Notes under the pieces: model-generated
What the model was told of the DNA's origin: nothing
Database searches by the model: none
What the model saw: only the letters and a program-made list of their open reading frames with translations
Shown here: one piece after another, positions 42,248 to 62,738 of the stretch
Numbering within the stretch: the stretch's first letter is position 1
Layout: every line of letters begins with the position of its first letter
Position numbers and translations under genes: made by a program
From: Psychrobacter sp. NZS113
GTDB taxonomy: Bacteria; Pseudomonadota; Gammaproteobacteria; Pseudomonadales; Moraxellaceae
Assembly (NCBI RefSeq): GCF_015864825.1
Contig: NZ_JADYWL010000003.1
Span: 310,001-374,000 of the forward strand
Length of the DNA stretch: 64,000 bases
Direction: 5' to 3'

Positions 42248-42324
42248 AGGCGTATAGCTCAGTTGGTTAGAGCGCTACCTTGACATGGTAGAGGTCAGCA
42301 GTTCGAGTCTGCTTATGCCTACCA
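42248..42324 (+). tRNA. tRNA-Val (GAC anticodon)
   Basis: A 77 nt cloverleaf. The acceptor stem AGGCGTA pairs with TATGCCT (one G-U), the anticodon stem-loop CTACC-TTGACAT-GGTAG has the anticodon GAC, and the T-arm contains GTTCGAGTC. The CCA end is encoded (42322-42324). Its 3' half from 42285 is repeated downstream, marking it as the attachment site of the islands that follow. Confidence 0.97.
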
Positions 42325-42400
42325 AATTTAGAAAGCCCCAATCTCACGATTGGGGCTTTTTTTGTCTGTAAAATATAGGCTGTAGTGAAAAAGGAAACTA
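42285..42400 (+). repeat. Attachment-site repeat, copy A (tRNA 3' half plus terminator)
   Basis: This stretch covers the tRNA-Val anticodon arm to CCA, the tRNA terminator and about 35 bp more (to CTGTAGTG). It is repeated at 50538-50655 with about seven mismatches in some 107 aligned bases, and in shorter form at 58555-58612 and 62672-62738. Confidence 0.85.
42332..42363 (+). terminator. Terminator of tRNA-Val
   Basis: AAAGCCCCAATC pairs with GATTGGGGCTTT around TCAC, with a T-run after it. This hairpin is carried along in each downstream repeat. Confidence 0.9.
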
Positions 42401-42564
42401 TACGTCGATTCAAATTTCCTCTTTTCTCACTTTCAGCAAACGTCATCAGAAAATGGGTGTGCCCGAATTGGGCATAAGTTGCGCCTACTCTCTATTTTGC
42501 CTTTCTTTCAGAGTAGTACTTTCGACCTCTACCCTAGATTATCTAAAACCACTTCAAAATTAAT

Positions 42565-42720
42565 TTACTTCTCTTTATCTAGCGGCTCGTTAGGTATATA
42601 AGTAAATAAATCACCTACTTCAATATCTAGAGCCTCATAAATTTTATCCATAGTGTCAAAATCTATTCTTGAAGTTGGACTTCTGCTGTCAAATCTATAA
42701 ATATAAACTCGGAAGGTTAT
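42565..42720 (-). pseudogene. Remnant of an XRE-family regulator, C-terminal part
   Basis: Translated on the minus strand, the stretch gives SRIDFDTMDKIYEALDIEVG, then a short acidic tail and a stop. This is the C-terminal part of the small Cro/C1-type HTH proteins typical of mobile elements; the N-terminal helix-turn-helix is missing. A similar remnant lies at 50816-51015, next to the second repeat copy, at the same relative place. The rest of 42401-42900 shows no gene. Confidence 0.55.
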
Positions 42721-42900
42721 CGTTTTGAAAAAGCATACGTTACTGTTTATTTTTATTAGGGTATACTTTTTTATACACCACGGGCATTTTTACAGGTCCG
42801 ACTAAATAATATACCGATACTGGCCCTCATTGCTCCATCCATGGATCAGACAGAGTACTGTAATTATTCAATGAAACTAAGAACAGAGCAAGAGAAAACA

Positions 42901-43806
42901 ATGACAGAGATTAATGGAAAGCGGTTATCCTATCTTTATGAGGCTGTAACTATGGGTACAATCCGGGCTGCAGCAGATAAGCTAGATATTGCTCCCTCAG
43001 CCATCAGTCGACAAATATCTCTGTTAGAAAAAGAGTTAGCATGCATTCTTATTGAACGGCACCGAAAAGGAGTAACACCAACAGAAGCTGGTAGTATTCT
43101 CTTGCAGTTTTATCGGGAATCAGTCTCCGCTGAAGAGACTTGTGTTTCCAAATTACAGTCTTTGTTGGGATTACAGCGGGGTCATATAAAGTTAGCAATG
43201 GGTGATGGTTTTGTTGGGGATTTGATGCTGGGTCCATTATCTGAGTTTGCCCGTCTATATCCGGCGCTAACACTTTCAATCAGTACTGGTGGATCAAACG
43301 AAGTGATTCGTCAGGTTGAGGAAGATGAAGCACATATCGGGCTAGTATTCCATCCCAGCAGTCATCCTCGCATCCGCTCACAGATCATCAGTTATCAGCC
43401 AATGTATATTATTGTTTCGCCCGACCATCCGTTAGCTGATCGAAGTAAACCTATGCAGTTAAAGGAGCTTTTGGAATATCCAGTGGGGCTGGCTGAAAGT
43501 CGTTTTGGCGTGCGTCAGTTACTAGCAATGGCCGAATTTCAACAAAAAATTCGATTTGACCCTATACTAACCACTGACTCATTCACGGTGCTAAAGAACT
43601 TTGCTCGTTCAAATATGGGGTTTACCTTTTTACCGTATTTTGTAGTGTCCAAAGAAGTGAAAGACGGACATTTGATAGCAATCCCTATAGACAATACGCT
43701 ACTGTCAAGCGGTGAAGCTCATATCGTCACTCGGTTGGGTCGTCATCTATCCCAAGGTCCGCATGAATTACTACAGCATATGAAGTCATGGATGAAAGCT
43801 TTGTAA
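42901..43806 (+). CDS. LysR-family transcriptional regulator
   Basis: 301 aa. The N-terminal winged helix (YLYEAVTMGTIRAAADKLDIAPSAISRQISLLEKELACILIERH) and the substrate-binding domain (about residues 75-290) are complete. I take ATG 42901, after AAGAG; ATGs at 42841 and 42871 extend it without a ribosome binding site. It lies at the 3' side of the minus-strand catabolic operon (43890-48858), converging with it rather than being divergent as is common. Control of that operon is a guess from proximity. The inducer is unknown. Confidence 0.9.
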   Translation: MTEINGKRLSYLYEAVTMGTIRAAADKLDIAPSAISRQISLLEKELACILIERHRKGVTPTEAGSILLQFYRESVSAEETCVSKLQSLLGLQRGHIKLAMGDGFVGDLMLGPLSEFARLYPALTLSISTGGSNEVIRQVEEDEAHIGLVFHPSSHPRIRSQIISYQPMYIIVSPDHPLADRSKPMQLKELLEYPVGLAESRFGVRQLLAMAEFQQKIRFDPILTTDSFTVLKNFARSNMGFTFLPYFVVSKEVKDGHLIAIPIDNTLLSSGEAHIVTRLGRHLSQGPHELLQHMKSWMKAL

Positions 43807-43817
43807 GCGGGCTGCAC

Positions 43818-61263: not shown

Positions 61264-61299
61264 ATTTTTATAAAATATGACTATTAATTAGGAAAAACC

Positions 61300-62550
61300 A
61301 TGATTATTAACAATGCAAAACTTCGAGGTAAACAGGGCTTATATAGCATTGAATGCGAAAATGGAAAATTTATAAGCATCATCGAGCAAGATGGCCCAGT
61401 CACTCCATTAGAGTCAAGTCTTGATGCAAAAATGAACTTACTGTCCGCTCCCTTTGTTGAACCTCATATTCACCTTGATGCTGTATTTACAGCAGGCGAA
61501 CCAAACTGGAATATAAGTGGCACTTTGTTTGAAGGAATAGAGCGTTGGGCTGAACGCAAGCCAATGTTAACCAGCGAAGATGTTCAGCGACGAGTATTAA
61601 AAGCAGTACAACTATTGATTGAAAATGGTGTTCAACATATTCGGACACATGTTGATATTACCGATCCTGAATTAGTTGCCTTAAAAGCAATAGTCGCTTT
61701 AAAAGAAAAACTCAGTGCTTATATTGATTTACAAATAGTTGCATTCCCCCAAGAAGGTATCTTATCCTTTCCTAACGGCAAGGAGCTGATGGAAAAAGCA
61801 CTTGAAGAAGGTGCTGATGTTATCGGTGGTATTCCTCATTTCGAATACACTAGAGAATATGGGGTTGAGTCGATGCGATGGATCATCGATCTTGCAGAAA
61901 AGCATGGGAAACTAGTTGATGTTCATTGTGATGAAATCGACGATGGCGCATCAAGATTTTTAGAGGTATTGGCTACAGCTGCCTTAGAAAAAGGCATCGG
62001 AGAACGCGTTACCGCAAGCCATACGACTGCCATGCACTCTTACAACAATGCTTACTGTACTAAATTATTTCGTTTACTAAAAAAATCTAAAATAAACTTC
62101 ATTGCGCTTCCTACTGAAAATATGCATCTGCAAGGACGATTTGATGGTTATCCAAAAATCCGAGGTATCACACGAGTTAAAGAAATAAGAGATGCTGGAA
62201 TGAATATATGTTTCGGTCAAGATTCAATACAGGATCCATGGTATACATTAGGTAATGGCAAACTACTTCGTGTGCTAGATTCAGGTATTCACTCATGTCA
62301 TATGATGGGATATGAAGACCTAGAGACCGCATTGGATTTAATTACAGATAATGGGGCTAAAACGCTTAATATATTTGAAAATTACGGTATAGAAGTGGGC
62401 AAGCCTGCAAACTTTATTGTTCTTGAAGGTGGCAATGATCTTGAAGTCATCCAAAAACAAGGCGACGTTTTATATTCTGTAAGAGCGGGAGAGGTACTGG
62501 TATCTAGACAGCCTGCTATTCTGAATCAAACTGTGAAGTTAGCTGAATAA
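61300..62550 (+). CDS. codA: Cytosine deaminase
   Basis: Metal-dependent amidohydrolase that converts cytosine to uracil and ammonia. The metal ligands are visible: PHIHLD (His56, His58), DVHCDE (His about 208, Glu about 211), SHTTAMHS and CFGQDSIQDPW (Asp). The remaining family motifs (THVDITDPEL, VGKPANFIVL) are present. Length 416 aa. AGGAAA lies before the ATG. With codB it allows use of cytosine as a pyrimidine or nitrogen source. Confidence 0.95.
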   Translation: MIINNAKLRGKQGLYSIECENGKFISIIEQDGPVTPLESSLDAKMNLLSAPFVEPHIHLDAVFTAGEPNWNISGTLFEGIERWAERKPMLTSEDVQRRVLKAVQLLIENGVQHIRTHVDITDPELVALKAIVALKEKLSAYIDLQIVAFPQEGILSFPNGKELMEKALEEGADVIGGIPHFEYTREYGVESMRWIIDLAEKHGKLVDVHCDEIDDGASRFLEVLATAALEKGIGERVTASHTTAMHSYNNAYCTKLFRLLKKSKINFIALPTENMHLQGRFDGYPKIRGITRVKEIRDAGMNICFGQDSIQDPWYTLGNGKLLRVLDSGIHSCHMMGYEDLETALDLITDNGAKTLNIFENYGIEVGKPANFIVLEGGNDLEVIQKQGDVLYSVRAGEVLVSRQPAILNQTVKLAE

Positions 62551-62577
62551 ATTAACGGTTTTTGAAAGCAATTGAAG

Positions 62578-62609
62578 TTGCGTTCGAGCCCGCTCTCTTG
62601 AACGCAATA
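62578..62609 (+). terminator. Candidate terminator of codA
   Basis: TTGCGTTC (62578-62585) pairs with GAACGCAA (62600-62607), followed by TATTTA. The T-run is weak, but the site is 27 nt after the codA stop. Confidence 0.5.
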
Positions 62610-62671
62610 TTTACCGCCCAGGTTTTGAGTGCACTGCTGATCGCAAAGTTTTTTTCTTAGTGAGGTAGTTA

Positions 62672-62738
62672 TGCTTATGCCTACCAAATTTAGCAAGCCT
62701 CAATCTTAAGATTGGGGCTTTTTTTGTTTATAGCATGT
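62672..62738 (+). repeat. Attachment-site repeat, copy D (right end of the islands)
   Basis: Starts TGCTTATGCCTACCAAATTTAG, the last 12 bases of the tRNA with its CCA and flank, followed by the terminator hairpin and GTGGGCT. It is the last copy before core-like genes resume. The hairpin, AAGCCTCAATCTTAAGATTGGGGCTT, can serve as a terminator. 62739-62977 contains no gene I can support. Confidence 0.75.

Follow-up and report, generated by a model that had tools for sequence, protein, structure and literature searches.

Probable tandem accretion of decayed integrative elements at the tRNA-Val(GAC) gene of Psychrobacter sp. NZS113

Integrative elements can accumulate at a tRNA gene in three steps, i.e. 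insertion, decay to a cis-mobilisable element (CIME) and accretion, as set out in PMC5704250, which deals with CIMEs and integrative and mobilisable elements (IMEs). In PMC4383910, on Islander, an island is delimited by a regenerated tRNA gene and a 3′ fragment displaced from it, both pointing the same way, and a table gives 3919 islands, four tandems of three or more and 2083 anticodon-centred islands. Asparagine-tDNA island hotspots are described in Klebsiella pneumoniae (PMC4891358), and tRNA remnants of this kind are expected to be pervasive, according to PMC9897764. The current study concerns a stretch of 64,000 nucleotides (the window) from Psychrobacter sp. NZS113, i.e. bases 310001-374000 of the 425-kb contig C16 in a draft genome of 3.37 Mb and 56 contigs. 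Between window positions 42248 and 62738, the 3′ part of a tRNA-Val(GAC) gene and its terminator recur, and an earlier reading made from the sequence alone (the sequence-only reading) had proposed up to three islands stacked there. Our results indicate that this locus is an accretion zone, in which decayed integrative elements have accumulated in tandem at tRNA-Val(GAC), with a probability of about 0.87.

We propose a series of interlinked steps. Integrative elements would enter tRNA-Val(GAC) through recombination within its anticodon arm, and each insertion would hand the live tRNA gene the element’s own 3′ half and terminator, while the former 3′ half would end up beyond the element, at its far end. 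The restored tRNA gene would then receive another element, which would push the older insertions away, after which deletions would remove the integrases and useful cargo would be retained. In the source genome, element 1 (from the tRNA gene to copy 2 of the repeat) and element 2 (from copy 2 onward) are both without their integrases, a loss that in element 2 is visibly due to deletion, and what is left are nutrient-use gene blocks separated by decaying tRNA/terminator copies (Table 1). The integrase reaction and the order of events are what we infer from the element ends, the integrase remnants, the high identity of cargo blocks across species and a switch inside the tRNA gene of a relative. 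The locus resembles the tandem accretion of CIMEs and IMEs (PMC5704250) in its integration at a tRNA 3′ end, the loss of integrase with attachment (att) sites kept and the later adjoining insertion, but it differs in its cargo, i.e. catabolic operons and, in relatives, CRISPR-Cas systems, and in that ten genomes of Psychrobacter relatives lack a PF03432 or PF02534 match over the cut-off. It is also like the anticodon-centred attachment class of Islander (PMC4383910), having a tRNA gene and a displaced fragment at the ends and a crossover in the anticodon region. As at the K. pneumoniae hotspots (PMC4891358), one tRNA gene serves different islands, although the tRNA, the host and the cargo differ.

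Table 1. Features of the tRNA-Val(GAC) region, in window coordinates, with the evidence for each. E, E-value; HTH, helix-turn-helix; ORF, open reading frame; nt, nucleotide; G numbers designate compared genomes.
Feature	Position	Strand	Evidence or remark
tRNA-Val(GAC), integration target	42248-42324	+	ARAGORN; anticodon arm 42275-42291 holds putative crossover region
Copy 1: tRNA nt 28 to 3′ end and terminator	42275-42393	+	blastn
Left-end remnant, element 1	42326-42678	+	left-end profile E 2e-85; 94% to intact left ends of G070/G052
Partial xre/HTH gene within element 1 left end	42568-42678	-	tblastn
Cargo block A: LysR regulator (+); DUF3100 permease, M20 peptidase, aldehyde dehydrogenase, 3-hydroxyisobutyrate-type dehydrogenase (all -)	42691-49247		Pfam
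IS3-type transposase, two ORFs	49228-50162	+	ORFs; rve domains in 49431-50162
Right end of element 1, adjoining copy 2	50487-50537	+	right-end profile match 50487-50554, E 1.5e-15
Copy 2: displaced tRNA 3′ part from nt 28 and terminator	50538-50656	+	blastn 110/119 (92%), E 6e-46
Left end of element 2	50589-51020	+	left-end profile E 8e-84; 85-88% to G009/G010/G064
xre remnant in element 2 left end	50819-51030	-	tblastn
Integrase remnant stretch, element 2	51020-51326	+	left-end comparison and tblastn
Sequence lying after integrase in intact elements	51322-51423	+	comparison with relatives
Glycosyltransferase-type block, four genes	51523-57331	+	Pfam; homologous block with nearly same borders in G025, G026, G089
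Acidic repeat protein gene	57426-58163	-	ORF list; G025/G026/G089 homology ends at 58558, edge of copy 3
Copy 3: terminator only	58555-58610	+	blastn 51/56 (91%), E 3e-17
Cytosine-type permease, PucR regulator, codA-like amidohydrolase (cod block)	58634-62605	+	Pfam; in G023 inside element with complete integrase
Copy 4: tRNA end from nt 63 and terminator	62672-62754	+	blastn 69/83 (83%), E 6e-20
ppiC (parvulin)	62978-63256	+	Pfam; near att copy in several relatives, no fixed flank

We recovered all four repeats of the sequence-only reading, on the same strand, by blastn of 42201-42500 against the window, and copies 2 to 4 align with copy 1 at the identities in Table 1; copy 2 carries nine mismatches in 119 bases rather than about seven in 107, and copy 4 extends to 62754 rather than ending at 62738. 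A fifth copy, beginning at tRNA nt 55, lies outside the window, 15 kb past ppiC (C16:388711-388783, i.e. window coordinates 78711-78783; 64 of 73 positions identical), and all five are on one contig and one strand. When a separate 121-base query was searched against the whole genome, the four further copies had E-values of 4e-16 to 9e-45 and the best match away from the copies 0.004. The repeat is thus not one that is common and dispersed, and the same values rule out a terminator-only repeat arising by chance. tRNA-Val(GAC) is the sole tRNA that ARAGORN finds in the window.

Comparison across Psychrobacter, which the earlier reading had put forward as a check, brought out strong differences between relatives at this locus. 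The survey covered 105 genomes including the source genome; the tRNA/terminator query matched in 102, and the tRNA-Val locus was examined in 98, the other seven being three without a match and four without a full-length match among the matches listed. In 37 of the 98 loci, an integrase of one family, with more than 300 of its 401 residues, lies 0.85-1.03 kb after tRNA-Val (that of G049 is in three pieces and that of G093 is cut by a contig end). Two further loci have a smaller part of the integrase, and 13, the source genome included, only an xre or left-end remnant. Together with the remnants in the window, this agrees with the earlier proposal of repeated insertion at tRNA-Val by tyrosine integrases. 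The left end of the element consists of the tRNA 3′ half, the terminator, xre on the opposite strand and the tyrosine integrase, and the right end is conserved. A scan of the GTDB collection with the signature TYGAC+CTACYTTGAYATGGTAGAGGTC returned 20 loci, all 20 titled Psychrobacter, and the element family was found here only in this genus. The elements lack the relaxase or type IV coupling protein of IMEs and of integrative and conjugative elements, insofar as ten of ten integrase-bearing whole genomes have nothing over the cut-off for PF03432 or PF02534, other relaxase families not having been searched; one match to each falls below the cut-off, on contigs other than that of the element.

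Profiles of the two ends were built from 35 of the 37 left ends of integrase-bearing loci and from 29 displaced copies, the source genome’s own copy excluded; ORFs were named by Pfam, and remnants were sought by tblastn and profile searches. In the source genome, the left-end remnant of element 1 stops short of the integrase. From copy 2 onward, att is followed by xre, a 275-bp deletion, the integrase start, a 1.03-kb deletion of the integrase body and the post-integrase sequence; here the left-end profile matches again at 51020-51106 (E 9e-22), and 51115-51327 corresponds to residues 6-76 of a G010-type integrase, with 82% amino acid (aa) identity over 71 codons (tblastn). This remnant is all that was found of an integrase in the tRNA-Val region. 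PF00589 has no match there and five elsewhere in the genome, of which the closest is on this contig, 98 kb upstream, and the earlier statement that no intact integrase remains is borne out. Another integrase of the same family lies in the source genome behind a different tRNA-like site (G000 contig 3, L106 from 7313 onward; 74% query match). Copy 5 also gives a left-end profile match (window coordinates 78735-78934, E 8e-23). The right-end profile matches at copy 2 and, weakly (E 0.008), at the anticodon arm of the live tRNA gene, and nowhere else in the genome. Judged by these sequences, the region 42248-62738 contains a decayed element that keeps both of its ends (segment 1) and, of a second element, the left end, with a third left end outside the window. 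The segments do differ in gene content by Pfam, with block A and the IS3-type transposase in segment 1, the glycosyltransferase block and the acidic repeat protein in segment 2 and the cod block in segment 3, but of the up to three islands proposed earlier only segment 1 has recognisable element sequence at both ends.

Segment 1 has the make-up of a CIME, with integration genes lost and both attL and attR kept, a judgement based on the att ends and the loss of the integrase, not on transfer genes. A tRNA gene and a displaced fragment are present in the same orientation on the same replicon, as Islander looks for, and of the integrase expected inside an island the source genome has only the 71-codon remnant. 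Since the tandem rule of Islander (PMC4383910) asks for an integrase and a fragment for each member, the source-genome stack would not count as a tandem array under that rule. The absence of an integrase, and an anticodon loop that reads TTGATAT in copy 2 against TTGACAT in the live gene (one mismatch), suggest that the stack is probably fixed at present; a visiting integrase might still act.

The position of the crossover is indicated by the displaced fragments, which start at tRNA nt 27/28 in 36 of 50 partial rows among the matches listed, a count made by eye and biased towards long fragments because weak matches are absent. The anticodon stem CTACC-TTGACAT-GGTAG has its 5′ edge at this point, and the conserved right end of the element stands to the left of the fragments, often ending in GTCGAC or GTTGAC. 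The first 27 nt of tRNA-Val are identical in 97 of 98 loci (G056 deviates), and two forms of the anticodon arm occur, in 89 and 9 loci. The 3′ half occurs in three main types, i.e. AGCAG/CTGCT (48 loci, the source genome among them), GTTGG/CCGAT (25) and GCTAG/CTAGT (25). The displaced type differs from the live one on the same contig in G043, G017 and G049, and on other contigs, in draft genomes, in G083, G036, G061 and G019. On a tree of GHR from 52 genomes (quick method), the 3′-half type changes at least nine times, against a mean of 16.4 and a minimum of 11 in 200 shuffles. A displaced copy is present in 31 genomes, 22 of which have GHR, and in 20 of these 22 the displaced type is the one that most of the five nearest relatives have (the misses are G004 and G079), whereas this holds for the live type in 16. 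Four of the seven mismatch cases could be placed on the tree, and in all four the displaced copy has the clade type and the live gene does not. The T arm differs between genera of the family as well, therefore slow vertical change also exists.

One event can be followed in G061. Upstream of the tRNA gene it is 95.8% identical to G010 and 77.1% to G060, and from tRNA nt 45 on it is 99.9% identical to G060 over 4,522 bp. Its displaced fragment, on another contig, together with 5 kb of chromosome, is 96.2% identical to G010, and in the 18 kb of G060 compared, nothing but the repeat matches this stretch. With the switch from host to foreign sequence lying inside the tRNA gene, G061 is, on the evidence of these alignments, a genome whose tRNA-Val gene has had its 3′ half, T arm included, replaced by an incoming element.

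Cargo has a distribution of its own. Block A has the same borders in G048 (95%) and G066 (90%), and its identity to the source genome is 96.3% in G048 (over 6.0 kb), 90.8% in G066, 87.0% in G041 and 87.6% in G015 (a figure that sums overlapping pieces, some from a paralogous copy), where the hemB-GHR flank has 77.8%, 77.5%, 76.7% and 83.9%, respectively. In G048, block A is found again between the tRNA gene and a right end with att. Neither an integrase nor an integrase remnant was found in the block A stretches of the source genome (segment 1), G048, G066 and G041. A search of the other 104 genomes for the cod-block amidohydrolase gave a single relative above 90%, that of G023 (94%), and 19 more at 48-51%, and the block as a whole is 88.3% identical in G023 versus 77.5% for the flank. 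Its place in G023 is 45 kb downstream of tRNA-Val, with about 1.6 kb between its end and the displaced att copy, in which only nt 28-47 can still be recognised. These observations allow a wider proposal, which we put forward tentatively, as possible and short of probable: the zone could be a genus-wide cassette bank, in which visiting integrases would move integrase-less cassettes such as block A between species in trans, and each insertion would swap the tRNA-Val 3′ half, so that the T arm of this tRNA in Psychrobacter would be a horizontally exchanged allele with its history kept in the displaced copies. The first part is suggested because block A is without an integrase yet 87-96% alike where the flank is 77-78%; the second because three 3′-half types stand behind an almost constant 5′ half and because the displaced copy has the clade type in each of the placed mismatches.

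The zone extends further than the window. The sequence-only reading had taken ppiC for the right flank, but ppiC directly follows tRNA-Val in only one of 98 loci (G034), and its close matches, in 80 of 105 genomes, are at many places, often far from the tRNA gene; the surveys of ppiC and trkA rule it out as the ancestral right border. The shared right backbone is formed by the trk genes, at window coordinates of about 91.7-101 kb and hence outside the window, with another element left end between ppiC and this backbone, and the same backbone ends the array in G015, G069 and G023. Because the trk backbone is the shared right anchor, the variable zone begins at window coordinate 42.3 kb and extends to about 91 kb, ppiC included. 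trkA, 53 kb downstream of tRNA-Val in the source genome, is a steadier anchor than ppiC. From 72 genomes with trkA, we kept the 21 with both genes on one contig in the orientation of the source genome, leaving out those on different contigs, inverted (such as G001, G102 and G071) or far apart (such as G090 and G072), and in these the tRNA-Val-trkA distance varies from 34.7 to 126.8 kb. The median is 104.6 kb with an integrase (nine genomes) versus 59.7 kb without (twelve; Mann-Whitney p 0.002). The gene-for-gene sameness among relatives that would have spoken against islands is therefore absent. In G062, G025 and G031 (L052, L054, L057), a tricarboxylate transporter cassette is inverted right after tRNA-Val, followed in G062 and G031 by hemB-GHR in reverse, which suggests that inversions have had one of their ends within the zone or close to it.

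Several observations weigh against accretion by integrase. No integrase, xre remnant or adjacent ppiC is present in 45 of the 98 loci, several of which end early at contig ends, and some cargo block borders lie away from att copies. Profile searches found no left end beyond the terminator and no right end at copies 3 and 4, where the left-end profile matches the terminator part only (58555-58620, E 3e-11; 62688-62755, E 1e-8); the remaining weaker hits above the threshold are mostly the same terminators read backwards. Copies 3 and 4 were rejected as intact att sites for this reason, and as island ends they are unproven. The glycosyltransferase block may belong to the older chromosome, where the zone borders on trk, and not be cargo of element 2, since the gene for its 405-aa protein (54865-56082; no Pfam match, matches in 64 of 105 genomes of the genus) lies 3.8-4.5 kb from trkA in G002, G003, G034 and G088, out of seventeen genomes with both genes on one contig, the others having at least 26 kb between them and ten of these more than 500 kb. 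G079 and G060 have left ends without a single difference in the first 500 alignment columns and yet carry different 3′ halves, and nearest neighbours agree with the 3′-half type in 19 of 24 cases for the integrase region, 16 of 24 for the first 500 columns and 15 of 24 for GHR. These two results speak against a strict tie between the 3′-half haplotype and the element left end, and because the two are not always inherited together, homologous exchange probably acts at the locus too.

Such exchange could be given a larger part, i.e. homologous recombination between tRNA/terminator repeats or operon flanks, for example after natural transformation, would have built most of the array and no integrase would be needed here. 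The sharp cargo borders partly off the att copies, the mismatch in G079 and the bare copies 3 and 4 are in its favour, as is the TauE-att junction at copy 5, which G053 and G066 have in common but in another place relative to ppiC. We consider this unlikely, because it leaves unexplained the peak of fragment starts at nt 27/28 with the conserved right end, the in-register xre and integrase remnants and the switch inside the tRNA gene of G061. Duplication of one element in tandem, or of the tRNA 3′ end locally, followed by divergence, would yield several copies in one direction on one contig, but it is highly improbable given that segment contents differ and that the closest left ends differ also, being those of G070/G052 for copy 1 (94%; six compared) and of G009/G010/G064 for copy 2 (85-88%; seven compared). 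An ordinary conserved chromosome with a common terminator repeat has next to no credibility, since similar terminators do occur elsewhere in the genome at low scores but fall far below the copies in E-value, and the tRNA-Val-trkA stretch varies as described above.

Accretion of integrative elements thus remains our preferred account, and the genes around the copies give an impression of what the zone carries. DUF3100 is present in 23 of 105 genomes. In G026, a right end with att lies to the right of the glycosyltransferase block, and after this right end comes a further left end. The protein encoded at 57426-58163 is very acidic, contains short near-perfect repeats (KEDESDKEDES...) and is linked to the glycosyltransferase block in G025 and G089. 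Between ppiC and copy 5 there are genes for a nitroreductase, a pirin, a MatC/CitM-type carrier, an amidohydrolase, a tripartite tricarboxylate transporter and TauE, and past copy 5 a TonB receptor and a malonate decarboxylase cluster, the genes of which, besides the alpha subunit, were named by eye. Among relatives, the integrase of G064 is followed by a complete type I-F CRISPR-Cas system, with six of six proteins over the NCBIfam cut-offs (L090 4867-13517). Type I-F genes lie behind the integrase in G009, G010, G017 and G052 as well (by clustering), and clusters of type I-C appearance at the same place in G076 and G079 (by eye). G064 further contains a set of three genes (L091 1247-7651; 199, 827 and 1144 aa), the two large proteins of which match tyrosine recombinases weakly, and parts of it cluster with genes of several other elements; the set is reminiscent of the Gamma-Mobile-Trio.

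No paper on a tRNA-Val element family of Psychrobacter was found, as judged by titles in a search outside which most subscription journals lie, and none came up on the exchange of tRNA 3′ alleles by integrative elements. The accretion is of a known kind, the genus-specific element family is new to the literature searched, and the record is unusually readable. A variable zone of 35-127 kb in Psychrobacter can be traced largely to one integrase family and one site, and its remnants show decay at one stage after another. The stack in the window would be missed as a tandem by island finders in which every member must have an integrase. Its broken island ends and tRNA-end copies can be read as a record of past insertions. 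G061 provides a clean natural case of a tRNA 3′ half, T arm included, replaced by an incoming element. For the organism, the zone is a place where operons for nutrient use are gained and lost in Psychrobacter, and in relatives CRISPR-Cas systems.

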